This document shows, one piece after another, positions 3,132 to 14,062 of a stretch of 64,000 bases of DNA; position 1 is the stretch's first letter; every line of letters begins with the position of its first letter. The DNA is from an uncultured Gammaproteobacteria bacterium. Lineage in GTDB: Bacteria > Pseudomonadota > Gammaproteobacteria > HK1. The stretch is taken from the NCBI GenBank assembly GCA_958295465.1, contig OY282353.1, positions 5,137,001 to 5,201,000 on the forward strand. Direction: 5' to 3'. Made by a program: the position numbers and the translations under genes. The notes under the pieces are model-generated. The model saw nothing but the letters and a program-made list of their open reading frames with translations, had not been told where the DNA came from and searched no databases.

Positions 3132-4856
3132 ATGGCCAGGACGAGCGGGAAAACCGGGAAGGCGCGCCGCGGGAGCAGGTCGCGACGGCATGGCCGTCCT
3201 TCGGTTGCGCTCCGGGAGCCGCGCGAGCGCGGCTGGGCGCGCCTTCGTTCGGCGCTGAACGCCGCGCCGGGGGTCCTGTTGCACCCGCAAACGCCCGATG
3301 CACCGGTCTGGAAGCTCCTGTGGCCGGTGCTCGCGGTGGCGTTCGCGGTGCGTGCGGCCATCGCCCTCTCCGGCGACTTCATGCTGCACCCCGACGAGAT
3401 CATGCAGTACCTGGAGCCGGCGCACGATGCAGTCTTCGGCAACGGCGTCGTCTACTGGGAGATCTTCTACGGTGTGCGTTCGTGGCTGGTGCCCGGTTTG
3501 GCCGCCGGGGTGATCGCGTTGCTGGACGCCGCCGGTCTCGGTCATCCGATGTGGTACGTCGGCGGGGTCGAGTTGACGTTCTGCGCGGTTTCCTTGCTGA
3601 TTCCCGCCGGAATGTACTTTTTTGCGCGGCGGCACCTGGACGAGACCGCGGCGCGGGTCGCGCTGATAGCCGGCGCGTTCTGGTACGAGCTGGTCGGCTT
3701 TGCCCACAAGCCGATGACCGAGTTCGTCGCCACGGCCCTGTTGATGGTGTTGCTGGCCCTGTGCGTACGGCCGTCGCCGAACCGGCCGGGGGTGGTCTGG
3801 CCGGTGGCTTTCTTCGCGGTGCTGGCCGCGGCGGTCCGGATACAGTATGCGCCCCTGCCGCTGGCCCTGCTCGGCCTGTTCCTGCTGCGCGTCGGAAGGG
3901 GCGCCAAGGCGCAGCTCGCGCTCGCCGCGAGCGTGTTCTTCCTCGCGGTCGGCGTATTCGACGCGGTGACGTGGGACGCCGGATTGTTCCACTCGTTCCG
4001 TTCGTATCTCGCCTTCAACCTCACCGTCGACAGAGAGGCGGCCGGCGCCGCGCGGCCGGTGCATGAATACTTCTGGTGGCTTCTGTTCACCGGCGGGGGG
4101 CTGAGTGCGCTCGGCATCGCCGCGGCCCTGCGCGACCCGCGCCGCTACGGCTTCCTGCTCCTGCTCATCGCCCTGCTCCTGTTCACCCATTCCGCGCAGG
4201 CGCACAAGGACTACCGCTACGTCTTCGCCTTCATGCCGCTCTGGCTCCTCGTCGGCGCCGGCGTCGTGGCGCAGCTCGCCGCCCGCACGGGCCGTCCGAT
4301 CCAGGTGTACGGGCTGGCCGGCGCCGTATTCGCAACGGTTTCCCTGGCCGGGATCCTCAATGCGTTGCCCTTCCAGGAGAAGGTGTACGCTTCAACCCAT
4401 GCCTGGACCATCAAGTTCATCCGCGGCCAGGATCCCGTTTTCGCCGCCTACCGCTACCTCGCCAGCGCGCCTGGCGTGGCCGGCGTGTGGCAGGTCGACC
4501 GTCTCTATCACGACACCCCCGGTTACTATCATCTGCACCGCAAGATACCGTTCTACGACTGGCGCACCGGGCAAGGCAACGATCTGCACAAGGACGCGGA
4601 AGCGCTTCGGACCTCGGTCAGCCATCTCGTGTCCCAGGACCCGAACCTCACCGTTCCCGGCTACGTGACGGAGAAGGCGTTCGGCAACGTCCGCATCCTG
4701 CGCCGCGAGGACAACCAATCTCCGGTGCGCCGGTGGCAGGGCTTCAATCCGACGATTACCGACAACATGTTCGGCACGCGGTTCGGTCACCGCATATACC
4801 CGGACGCCGCGCCTCCACCGGCCGACAACAACATTCGCTTCGTCGCACCGGAGTGA
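3132..4856 (+). CDS. GT22 (Alg9/PIG-B-like) mannosyltransferase family protein
   Basis: A 574-residue membrane protein with a basic soluble N-terminus (~60 residues) and about ten hydrophobic segments. Signature features of the Alg9-like GT22 family are visible: HPDEIMQYLEPAHD after the first helix, then YWEIFYGVRSWLVP, and later QAHKDYRYVFAFMPL, matching the family's HKE/D-x-R-F region. These enzymes add sugars from lipid-phosphate donors on the outer face of the membrane. It follows the GT39-like gene after 56 bases in the same direction, consistent with a two-gene glycan unit. The acidic residue of the HPDE motif is the likely catalytic base. The actual sugar is not predictable. Confidence 0.75.
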   Translation: MARTSGKTGKARRGSRSRRHGRPSVALREPRERGWARLRSALNAAPGVLLHPQTPDAPVWKLLWPVLAVAFAVRAAIALSGDFMLHPDEIMQYLEPAHDAVFGNGVVYWEIFYGVRSWLVPGLAAGVIALLDAAGLGHPMWYVGGVELTFCAVSLLIPAGMYFFARRHLDETAARVALIAGAFWYELVGFAHKPMTEFVATALLMVLLALCVRPSPNRPGVVWPVAFFAVLAAAVRIQYAPLPLALLGLFLLRVGRGAKAQLALAASVFFLAVGVFDAVTWDAGLFHSFRSYLAFNLTVDREAAGAARPVHEYFWWLLFTGGGLSALGIAAALRDPRRYGFLLLLIALLLFTHSAQAHKDYRYVFAFMPLWLLVGAGVVAQLAARTGRPIQVYGLAGAVFATVSLAGILNALPFQEKVYASTHAWTIKFIRGQDPVFAAYRYLASAPGVAGVWQVDRLYHDTPGYYHLHRKIPFYDWRTGQGNDLHKDAEALRTSVSHLVSQDPNLTVPGYVTEKAFGNVRILRREDNQSPVRRWQGFNPTITDNMFGTRFGHRIYPDAAPPPADNNIRFVAPE

Positions 4857-11995: not shown

Positions 11996-12163
11996 GTGGG
12001 GGCGCTGGCCGTCGCCGGTTTGCAGAAACGGCTGTTGTCGTCCATCGAGGCGTTCGCGAAGACCCTCGCGGTGCACCGGAGAGGCGTCCTGCGGGCGCTG
12101 GAGGAGGCTCGCGACGCCGAGGAACTCCCCGACGCGACGCTGGCCGATCTCGAAGCGATCACC
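11996..12163 (+). pseudogene. Fragment resembling a helicase C-terminal segment
   Basis: About 55 codons read VAGLQKRLLSSIEAFAKTL and AVHRRGVLRALEEA, which resembles a segment of large SNF2/DEAD-type helicase proteins (LQKRLLSSIEAF is a motif I associate with them). No helicase motifs I-VI are present, and the match ends where the 17-bp repeat shared with tRNA-Gln begins. I read it as a remnant of a gene truncated by an insertion or deletion. The assignment rests on memory of the motif and needs a database comparison. Confidence 0.35.
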
Positions 12164-12180
12164 AGTCAAAGTCCCGTGCC
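12164..12180. repeat. Candidate att-like repeat, left copy
   Basis: AGTCAAAGTCCCGTGCC here is identical to the anticodon-arm region of tRNA-Gln at 14025-14041, in the same orientation. Tyrosine recombinases often use the anticodon arm as attachment site, so this could be the distal end of an integrated element. No integrase gene is visible between the copies. Confidence 0.4.
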
Positions 12181-12429
12181 CATCACTCATAACACGTTGA
12201 GTTTGAAAACAATCTTTGGCGAGATCGCCCCTTCACCTGCCATTTCACACACCATTTTTCAGGCGACTAGACGATACGGCGAGAGACTATACGGGACACT
12301 TCGGCGGGTTGTACACTCGTTTCCGACTTCCGGGCCGGTCTCATTGAAGCGCCCTCGAAACGATGCCGGAACCGCCGAACGATGGTCCCTTTCCGGCCCG
12401 GAGCCACCGCCCAGGGAGAACGCGCGGGG

Positions 12430-12708
12430 ATGGAACGAGCCATGTTCAAGCTCAGCCAGGAAACCATCGCCATCGTCACGGTCGGCCTCGCACTGGCTAC
12501 CCTCATCGTCACCGGAGACGCCGCCAATCGGGCCGAAGCCCGCGCCGACCGGGAAACCCTCCGGGTGGAGGCTCGCGCCGACCGCACCGAGGCTCAGGCC
12601 GCGCGCGAAGCCGACCGGGAAGCCTTCGAGCAGCACATCATCCGGTTGACCCAGGGACAGAGCCGGCTGACCGGCATCGTCGAGCAGATGCGCACCGCCG
12701 GACGATAG
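12430..12708 (+). CDS. Small membrane-anchored coiled-coil protein
   Basis: A 92-residue protein: one transmembrane helix near the N-terminus (ETIAIVTVGLALATLIV) followed by a charged Ala/Arg/Glu/Asp helix with a heptad-like pattern. ATG at 12430 is preceded by AGGGAG; ATG at 12442 is an alternative. I do not know a function. The next two genes have the same architecture and charge pattern, so the three form a small cassette. Confidence 0.6.
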   Translation: MERAMFKLSQETIAIVTVGLALATLIVTGDAANRAEARADRETLRVEARADRTEAQAAREADREAFEQHIIRLTQGQSRLTGIVEQMRTAGR

Positions 12709-12732
12709 GAGCGCTACCGGAGAACCGCCGCC

Positions 12733-12906
12733 ATGTCTCCCGAGCTCATCGCCATCATCGGCGCCGCAATCGCCCTCGCCGCGGTCATCCTCCCCGGTCA
12801 ACATGCGATGCGCCGCGACATTGCCGACCTTCGCGAACGCATGGCGCGGCTGGAAGGGTTGTTCGAGGGGTTCACACGCCGCGAGTCCGCGCCGCCGCCC
12901 GCGTAG
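12733..12906 (+). CDS. 57-residue membrane/coiled-coil protein
   Basis: A short gene starting MSPELIAIIGAAIALAAVI (membrane helix), followed by a charged helix with RDIADLRERMARLEGLF and a Pro-rich end. It lies 24 bases after the preceding gene and is clearly related to it in layout (SxETIAIV versus SPELIAII). Similar short helix-plus-coil proteins often come in pairs with DUF1640 genes. Function unknown. Confidence 0.6.
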   Translation: MSPELIAIIGAAIALAAVILPGQHAMRRDIADLRERMARLEGLFEGFTRRESAPPPA

Positions 12907-12925
12907 CCGGTCCACGGGGAACGCC

Positions 12926-13243
12926 ATGACCGCCGCGACCTTCGACACCCTCAGCGCCGCCCGCGAGCTCAAAGCGGCCGGCATCGAACCCGAGCACGCC
13001 GAAGCCATCGCCGGCACGGTCCGGCAGGCCACCGCCGCCGACCGGGAAGCACTGGCGACGAAGGCGGACCTCGCCGAGCTCCGGGCAGACATGCAGGCGG
13101 ACCTTCGCGCCGCCATCGAACCGCTCGCCACGAAAGCCGAGCTTGCCGCCCTTCGCGCCGAGCTCGGGACCATCCGATGGTCAGTCGGCTTGATTGCCGC
13201 GTTCCTGTTCGCCATCGGCCTTCGAGTGTTCGGGTTGATCTGA
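12926..13243 (+). CDS. DUF1640-like coiled-coil membrane protein
   Basis: A 105-residue protein starting MTAATFDTLSAARELKAAGI, the usual opening of bacterial DUF1640-type proteins. A central coiled coil with ATKADLAELRADMQADLR and ATKAELAALRAEL repeats follows, then a C-terminal membrane helix (SVGLIAAFLFAIGLRVFGLI). The family is distantly related to mitochondrial calcium uniporter regulators, but its bacterial role is not established. It forms a cassette with the two preceding genes. Confidence 0.7.
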   Translation: MTAATFDTLSAARELKAAGIEPEHAEAIAGTVRQATAADREALATKADLAELRADMQADLRAAIEPLATKAELAALRAELGTIRWSVGLIAAFLFAIGLRVFGLI

Positions 13244-13251
13244 CCCGCGCC

Positions 13252-13305
13252 ATGACCGCGAGCACCTTCGACACCCTCACCGCCCTTCGATTCTTCCCCG
13301 CTTGA
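13252..13305 (+). pseudogene. Truncated second DUF1640 start
   Basis: Seventeen codons, MTASTFDTLTALRFFPA, repeat the opening of the gene just upstream (MTAATFDTLSAARELK) and then stop. This looks like the remains of a tandem duplicate or a recombination scar. Spacing to the preceding stop is eight bases. Confidence 0.5.
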
Positions 13306-13583
13306 CCTTCCACCGGGCCGGGCCGGCCGTTCGCGCACGCCATCCGCACGTCGAGCCGATGCCGGCCGCCGTTGCCGACGACGTCGACGGCCGCCGCGCC
13401 CTTGAAGCATGAGGAAACCGGGGGGGTAGGGGTCAATTCGCAGGCCGGTGGGGGGGCCGGCGATGCGCCGGCGCTTGGGTCTCTATCAGGTACCCTTCTC
13501 CGACAAGCTGGCTCGCGCGACTTCCAGGGCCGCGACACCCGCGCCGCCCAGGGCCGCGACGCTCTCGCACAGGGTAGATGCGC

Positions 13584-13901
13584 CTACCGGTCCCGGTCCC
13601 GATCCACGTACTCCACGTCCGCCGCCGACAGCCCAAGCGCCTCGCGCCGCTTGGCGATCTCGCGCATCAGCACCGTCGCCTCGCGATGGATCTCCGCCGG
13701 CGTCTTGCCCGCCAGGTCGTCGTCGTGCTCCGGCTTCGGCGTCTCCGTCATGCCGAGCCGCGACTTGGCGAGAAACTTCAGGAGCGCCGGGTTGCCTCCC
13801 GTCCACCGCCCCGCCTCCGCGTCCCAGGTCCCGATGGCGTGATCTTCGAGGGATTGCAGGATCTCCCCGTACAGGCTCGCCAGGGCTGGCAGGCAGGCCA
13901 C
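13584..13901 (-). CDS. Hypothetical protein, possibly phage-related
   Basis: About 105 residues, acidic, with GNPALLKFLAKSRLGMTE in the middle and a charged helical C-terminus (TVLMREIAKRREALGLSAAD). The GNPALLxFLxKxxLGM segment resembles a stretch found in some phage small-terminase-like and replication-associated proteins, a weak resemblance. The frame is open upstream of the GTG used here and no ribosome site is visible, so it may be a 5'-truncated gene. It lies between the DUF1640 cassette and tRNA-Gln. Confidence 0.4.
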   Translation of the reverse strand: MACLPALASLYGEILQSLEDHAIGTWDAEAGRWTGGNPALLKFLAKSRLGMTETPKPEHDDDLAGKTPAEIHREATVLMREIAKRREALGLSAADVEYVDRDRDR

Positions 13902-13987
13902 GGGCAGGGATTCGGGCAGGCTCGCCCGCCGCGAGGCTCTACGGGCCGCTCAGGGCGCTGTGTACGGGACTAAACGGCTGATTTCGT

Positions 13988-14062
13988 TGGCTGGGGTGCC
14001 TGGATTCGAACCAGGGAATGCGGGAGTCAAAGTCCCGTGCCTTGCCGCTTGGCTACACCCCA
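13988..14062 (-). tRNA. tRNA-Gln (TTG)
   Basis: A 75-base cloverleaf on the minus strand: acceptor TGGGGTG paired with CACCCCA, D-arm AGCCAAGCGGCAAGGC, anticodon loop with TTG, T-arm with GGTTCGAATCC, discriminator G and encoded CCA. Layout and length match bacterial tRNA-Gln. It lies downstream of ispE as in many gammaproteobacteria. Its anticodon-arm sequence is repeated at 12164. Confidence 0.95.
14025..14041. repeat. Candidate att-like repeat, right copy within tRNA-Gln
   Basis: AGTCAAAGTCCCGTGCC inside the tRNA-Gln anticodon arm, identical to 12164-12180. If these are recombination sites they would bound a ~1.86-kb element carrying the DUF1640 cassette, with tRNA-Gln kept intact at the right end. 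Confidence 0.4.

Follow-up and report, generated by a model that had tools for sequence, protein, structure and literature searches.

A tRNA-Gln(TTG) segment recurs within the window

The window, a stretch of 64,000 nucleotides from the genome of an uncultured gammaproteobacterium, contains a tRNA-Gln gene of which 17 bases recur a short distance away, which raises the question of whether the DNA between the two copies is the remnant of an integrative element. The 17-bp direct repeat AGTCAAAGTCCCGTGCC is present in two exact copies (12164-12180 and 14025-14041), both in the + orientation and 1861 bases apart, in agreement with the sequence-only reading, which had placed one copy in tRNA-Gln. 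The proximal copy (14025-14041, +) comprises bases 22-38 of the 75 bases of tRNA-Gln(TTG), the integration target, which ARAGORN locates on the minus strand at 13988-14062. The distal copy (12164-12180, +) stops one base past the anticodon loop, and the tRNA 3' half is missing from it. In tRNA numbering, the repeat spans the D stem's 3' strand, the anticodon stem's 5' strand and all of the anticodon loop, with one further base. It had been described as the anticodon arm, which is correct for the 5' strand of the anticodon stem and the loop, but the repeat is slightly wider than the arm on one side, where it adds the D-stem strand, and shorter than the arm on the other.

Search of the 5.68-Mb genome that holds the window (G000) returned no third copy of the 17-mer at up to 2 mismatches. 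The expected chance recurrence of any 17-mer of tRNA-Gln(TTG), counted in both orientations, is 1.9e-5 per 2 kb under a third-order Markov model of the window. Chance copies elsewhere, which had been named as a point that would weaken the case, were thus not encountered in the own genome. When the window was shuffled with its dinucleotides preserved and searched at up to 3 mismatches, a mean of 0.20 matches was obtained and 1 of 100 shuffles contained two or more, against the 2 exact matches observed; this control is looser and less sharp than the Markov expectation.

Sister elements carry integrases and related cargo

Comparison of the region with its own genome by BLAST revealed at least 55 matching pieces, the window included (40 of 251 initial candidates were scored), with C1:1139672-1141951 and C1:1084779-1085389 as two of the best other places. 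The first of these forms the distal portion of an element at tRNA-Gln(CTG) that looks complete (sister 1, C1:1128667-1142125). Sister 1 measures approximately 13.4 kb between its repeats, and its tRNA lies at positions 4668-4741 of locus L051. Directly after this tRNA, an open frame of 442 aa encodes a tyrosine integrase with Arm-DNA-bind_3, Phage_int_M and Phage_integrase domains, followed by an M78 peptidase-like gene, a Toprim/DUF7146 gene, a DUF3631 gene, a phage-PAPS-reductase-like gene, a 174-aa gene, the cargo patch and attR, a block of 66 bases that is identical to attL and includes the displaced tRNA 3' half. Sister 2, at tRNA-Met (C1:1084600-1095646, approximately 11.0 kb), contains an integrase, Toprim, DUF3631, the patch and a tRNA 3' half, and its integrase (404 aa, open frame) is 87% identical to that of sister 1. 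Sister 3, at tRNA-Gln(CTG) in the relative G002 (approximately 7.0 kb), has the order integrase, M78 pieces, 174-aa gene and patch. All three sisters carry related cargo next to the far att site.

P4-type integrase elements and phage satellites serve as a comparison family. The sister elements resemble them in having an Arm-DNA-bind_3 integrase by a tRNA, a primase-type Toprim gene and a size of 7-13 kb. A PHROG scan of nine sister 1 proteins gave integrase, metallo-protease, primase and PAPS-reductase matches; unlike in phage satellites, no capsid, packaging, structural or helper-interference gene was found among the scanned proteins of the sisters. Of transfer-type matches they gave a single one, that of the Toprim protein to a TraI model, with 87 bits against a cut-off of 930.

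A deletion joint lies 28 bases from the tRNA

Homology between the window and sister 1 ends at 13959, and homology to the tRNA-side flank of G002 starts at 13960; the 28 bases between this joint and the tRNA (13960-13987) are common to the occupied site of G002. Relative to sister 1, the window lacks L051 4742-15672, approximately 10.9 kb with the integrase included, and no integrase was found in the 1.86-kb interval with the two sister integrases as queries against the window. Transfer genes were likewise not found in the four cargo ORFs scanned. By this comparison, the window appears to hold an internally deleted element of which the distal end, the DUF1640 cargo and the proximal 28 bases are left.

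We therefore read the interval as the wreck of a tyrosine-integrase element that was once inserted at tRNA-Gln(TTG) and has since lost its integrase, with a probability of roughly 0.86. As a genomic fossil, the 1.9-kb stretch is of an ordinary kind apart from one unusual end. The att-type ends of an integrase-less element that the sequence-only reading had proposed find support in the sisters with integrases, in the broken integrase that G002 has at this tRNA and in a homologous distal end at the corresponding tRNA of G003. From these comparisons we infer the following order of events. With its integrase, an element of a family resident in the genus would have entered tRNA-Gln(TTG) at the anticodon loop, and the gene would have stayed whole because the element supplied a tRNA 3' half of its own. 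An internal deletion would then have taken out the whole tRNA side, including the integrase, the DUF3631 gene and the Toprim/primase-like gene, and joined 13959 to 13960; a second deletion would have cut the hypothetical gene, and a third would have merged two DUF1640 genes. At the distal end, drmD sequence may have come to replace the displaced tRNA 3' half through another event, whether a deletion or an integrase crossover at a chance site.

The cargo patch is a mosaic

The cargo patch (12312-13959, +) matches the distal part of sister 1 at 79-93% in pieces, and the small coiled-coil genes, the truncated duplicate (13252-13305) and the hypothetical gene (13584-13901) previously noted between the repeats are all present. 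The first small gene (12382-12708, +) encodes 108 aa with, by the look of the sequence, one hydrophobic stretch and a coiled-coil-like tail. Its product has weak matches only, to Phage_holin_2_4 (E 0.0045, below the cut-off) and to an Rz-like spanin (E 0.02), and such holin- and spanin-family matches of the cargo mean little. The second (12733-12906, +) encodes 57 aa, of which 55 are as in the G002 tRNA-Gln(CTG) element. The third (12926-13243, +) encodes a CCDC90-like (DUF1640) protein of 105 aa, whose match to PF07798 (E 2.8e-7, 31 bits) just misses the cut-off of 33.5. It is followed by a truncated DUF1640 duplicate of 17 aa (13252-13305, +), in which the start of one gene is fused to the last codons of another and which coincides with repeat D1 and an alignment break. 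On the minus strand, the truncated hypothetical gene (13584-13901) is what remains of the sister's 174-aa gene after loss of the first 80 codons, namely residues 81-174; neither version has a Pfam or PHROG match. A packaging role for the 174-aa gene, suspected from its look, was dropped, as no match was obtained in the phage collection, Pfam or PHROGs.

The genes of the patch are closest to different sister loci, making the cargo a mosaic. By identity, the 108-aa protein is closest to a G002 locus beside tRNA-Thr (85%), while sister 1 reaches 75% over a longer stretch, and the DUF1640 gene (12926-13243) is identical to the G002 copy beside tRNA-Thr at 313 of 315 nucleotides. The conserved chromosomal side, from ispE onward, is 83-91% identical between the own genome and G002, and the far closer match of the DUF1640 gene suggests that the cargo was probably exchanged recently.

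Pieces of the patch segment 12312-13305 are scattered across the genome, and the gene starts repeat (D1); these repeated starts could let cassettes recombine. Matches to PF07798 at E <= 0.001 number 9 in G000 (the window's own copy excluded), 12 in G002, 11 in G003, 9 in G004, 6 in G006 and 1 in G005, and there are none in G001, G009, G010, G011 and G014 or in 14 control genomes. At the G002 tRNA-Thr(CGT) locus (G002:C1:3680194-3681491; L101 10195-11492), the DUF1640 patch starts 147 bases behind an intact tRNA, in the orientation opposite to that at the other tRNAs. PAPS-like and DUF3631-like pieces and a Toprim gene lie beyond the patch; no sister integrase was found in this stretch.

The distal arm belongs to a tRNA-Gln(TTG) class

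Between the distal repeat copy and the cargo lies a distal attachment arm (12181-12311), assigned to a tRNA-Gln(TTG) class by its alignment to a remnant at the same tRNA in G003. Local alignment of 12181-12330 with this remnant covers approximately 12224-12324 and scores 57.6, a value reached by none of 300 dinucleotide shuffles (maximum 37.2). Against the arms of sisters 1-3, the window arm showed no likeness, the scores being reached by 99, 37 and 52 of 300 shuffles. The likeness to the G003 remnant indicates that the left end of the interval represents the distal end from an element line which used tRNA-Gln(TTG), and the lack of likeness to the sisters suggests that arm and cargo probably come from separate lines: elsewhere, this cargo accompanies the other class of arm. 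No intact element carrying this distal arm was seen.

These results bear on two other explanations. That the 17-bp match arose by chance, and that the patch consists of unrelated duplicated genes which happen to adjoin a tRNA, we find hardly credible: it would fit the scatter of cargo pieces across the genome, the single shuffle in 100 with two matches at up to 3 mismatches, and the nature of the distal copy, an internal tRNA fragment of the kind discarded by Islander, but it is opposed by the Markov expectation for an exact 17-mer, by three sister copies of the patch that end at the 3' halves of their own tRNAs and by the homology between the arm and the remnant at tRNA-Gln(TTG) of G003. Highly improbable as well is the arrival of the remnant by homologous recombination between cargo patches, with a ready-made distal end and no integrase event at this site. 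The mosaic cargo, with genes closest to different sister loci, agrees with such an exchange, which nevertheless leaves unexplained why the distal copy holds bases 22-38 of exactly the neighbouring tRNA and not of tRNA-Gln(CTG) or tRNA-Met.

The distal end is joined to a drmD fragment

Outside the distal repeat lies an internal fragment of a drmD-like gene (DISARM helicase; 11999-12151, +), recognized by its matches to long drmD-type ORFs. Six other matches were found in the 17 genomes searched, all of them long open frames (1122-1471 aa) with 55-60% identity, and the two homologues from the own genome that were scanned have DrmD of PADLOC and NCBIfam as their best models. Two long DISARM DrmD-type helicase genes lie elsewhere in the own genome (G000:C1:1868046 and 5405612). 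A helicase fragment had been said to end exactly at the repeat; a DrmD-like fragment of approximately 50 codons, the only piece of a DISARM system identified there, does adjoin it, with urease genes beyond, but detectable homology ends at approximately 12121-12151 depending on the homologue, some 12-42 bases short of the repeat, so the earlier statement is right only to that precision. As to whether the repeat is native to drmD genes, detectable homology stops in most relatives within a variable linker ahead of it, and one homologue aligned weakly through the repeat to 12184.

In the window, the tRNA match stops one base past the anticodon loop, with drmD-like sequence behind it, whereas a tRNA 3' half is retained at all four of the other distal ends compared. 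The displaced half amounts to 66 of 66 bases at the G000 tRNA-Gln(CTG) distal end and 53 of 55 at that of G002, to 42 bases at the tRNA-Met distal end, where some six loop bases are missing on the 5' side, and to 43 degenerate bases (81%) of tRNA-Gln(TTG) in G003, 4.5 kb from the tRNA and next to the sequence that resembles the distal arm of the window. Strand exchange by such integrases is expected at the point where the match stops (PMC8371274, PMC4383910). The proposal that the two copies represent attL and attR thus stands for attL, which is whole, while the distal copy, without a tRNA 3' half, is not a complete attR. The missing half could be explained by a deletion or, alternatively, by an integrase crossover at a chance site.

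Excision would disrupt the sole tRNA-Gln(TTG)

Among the 44 typed tRNAs above the Rfam cut-off in the own genome, there is one tRNA-Gln(TTG) and one tRNA-Gln(CTG). The CTG anticodon cannot read CAA. The 3' half of tRNA-Gln(TTG) would be element-borne (attL), and excision across the window repeats would therefore cost an essential tRNA its 3' half. As this tRNA is the sole one reading CAA, the relic is probably locked in place. A tRNA-SeC was also called by ARAGORN (G000:C1:188268-188358), with an Rfam tRNA score of 22.9, below the cut-off.

The same observation weighs on the possibility that the interval is a non-autonomous mini-element which still moves, with both ends kept and the integrase supplied by the sisters. 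Retention of both repeat copies and of the distal arm would suit such an element, as would the two long-open-frame integrase genes in the genome and the near identity of the DUF1640 gene to that of G002 against a far more divergent flank, which implies that at least the cargo moved recently. We nonetheless regard it as very unlikely, given that its excision would take away half of the only tRNA-Gln(TTG), that the repeat pair is present once in the genome, and that its distal arm differs from those of the sisters, whose integrases may for that reason not bind it. A more elaborate form of the integrase-loss reading would hold that possession of the 3' half of the sole tRNA-Gln(TTG) is what has kept the element in place, that a chance-site crossover rewired its distal site within drmD and made excision lethal, and that it has become a permanent dock exchanging DUF1640 cassettes between elements and species; we treat this as speculative and rather improbable.

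The tRNA-Gln(TTG) site in relatives

In three genomes of the family outside the genus (G006, G011 and G014), prs lies within approximately 115 bases of tRNA-Gln(TTG), the G011 prs protein being named by NCBIfam, and tRNA-Gln(TTG) followed by prs is taken as the ancestral state. Four of the five genus genomes have prs elsewhere, with no tRNA remnant in front, and prs was not found in G003. The empty tRNA-Gln site that had been sought in relatives is thus represented by clean examples outside the genus, but by none within it.

G002 carries a broken integrase gene at its tRNA-Gln(TTG), beginning approximately 130 bases from the tRNA end; it is spread over two frames, which share 57 and 65% identity with the sister 1 integrase. 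The locus also holds a split Toprim gene and a DUF3631 gene that is cut; the large reading frame next to the cut resembles a transposase gene. Searches of 20 kb around tRNA-Gln(TTG) in G001, G003 and G004 gave no sister integrase. At up to 1 mismatch, the 17-mer occurs in 8 of 54 relatives, once in each, and in seven of the eight it is the tRNA itself; for the eighth, that of G010, the retrieved stretch yielded no tRNA. The prediction of larger elements ending in the same 17 bases accordingly failed in the 54 relatives, none of which contains a second copy of the 17-mer. The same genes without this repeat had been listed as an argument against an integrative element; related genes do occur so, but harmlessly, as three sister copies sit between the repeats of their own tRNAs.

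Comparison of the left flank with G002 revealed a match to only ureD of the five urease genes, inverted and with 45% protein identity, so the left flank is uninformative on the earlier state of the site. The ispE side of tRNA-Gln(TTG) aligns in all four genus relatives, and the left side of the window (from 9000) has no nucleotide match in them other than ureD and one short piece in G002; tRNA-Gln(TTG) therefore looks like a breakpoint of gene order in the genus. A plasmid search with the region returned 114 records, none covering 80% of it, and the best 8 of the 114 match the tRNA part only.

Relation to known integrative elements

The interval resembles the tRNA genomic islands of Islander in that a tRNA gene and a same-orientation fragment flank DNA and in the anticodon-centred crossover subsite; tyrosine integrases, a further likeness, are carried by the sister elements and not by the interval (PMC4383910). 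The tRNA gene is accompanied by a fragment of the same tRNA in the same orientation on the 3' side, which is the Islander signature. Islander further uses an end fragment, an integrase and a length of 2 to 200 kb, whereas the window fragment is internal (bases 22-38 of 75) and the interval measures 1.86 kb and has no integrase.

A CIME is a cis-mobilizable element without integration and transfer genes that has kept attL and attR (PMC5704250). The window interval is similar in having lost its integrase, and integration and transfer genes more generally, and in carrying cargo between two att-like repeats. It differs from a CIME in its incomplete attR, which has one core half and the loop and lacks the other half, and in having no known conjugative parent, the TraI match of the sister Toprim protein being far below the cut-off. 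Among the titles and abstract openings surveyed in the literature, none concerned this element family.

The locus illustrates that a short direct repeat by a tRNA can mark a decayed island which published filters, with their demand for an integrase, an end fragment and a length of at least 2 kb, would drop, and that such cases can be resolved by comparing sister elements within one genome. The findings also indicate that a little-known gammaproteobacterial genus has a family of small elements that target tRNAs and carry DUF1640 cargo, with near-identical copies of this cargo in different genomes. Relatives of the sister 1 integrase were observed at 26 loci of named genomes, 2 of them in G002 and 14 in Gemmatimonadetes, Gemmatimonadota or Palauibacter records, at approximately 43-47% identity; several of the genomes among these loci (L110-L135) are presumably sponge or coral symbiont bins.
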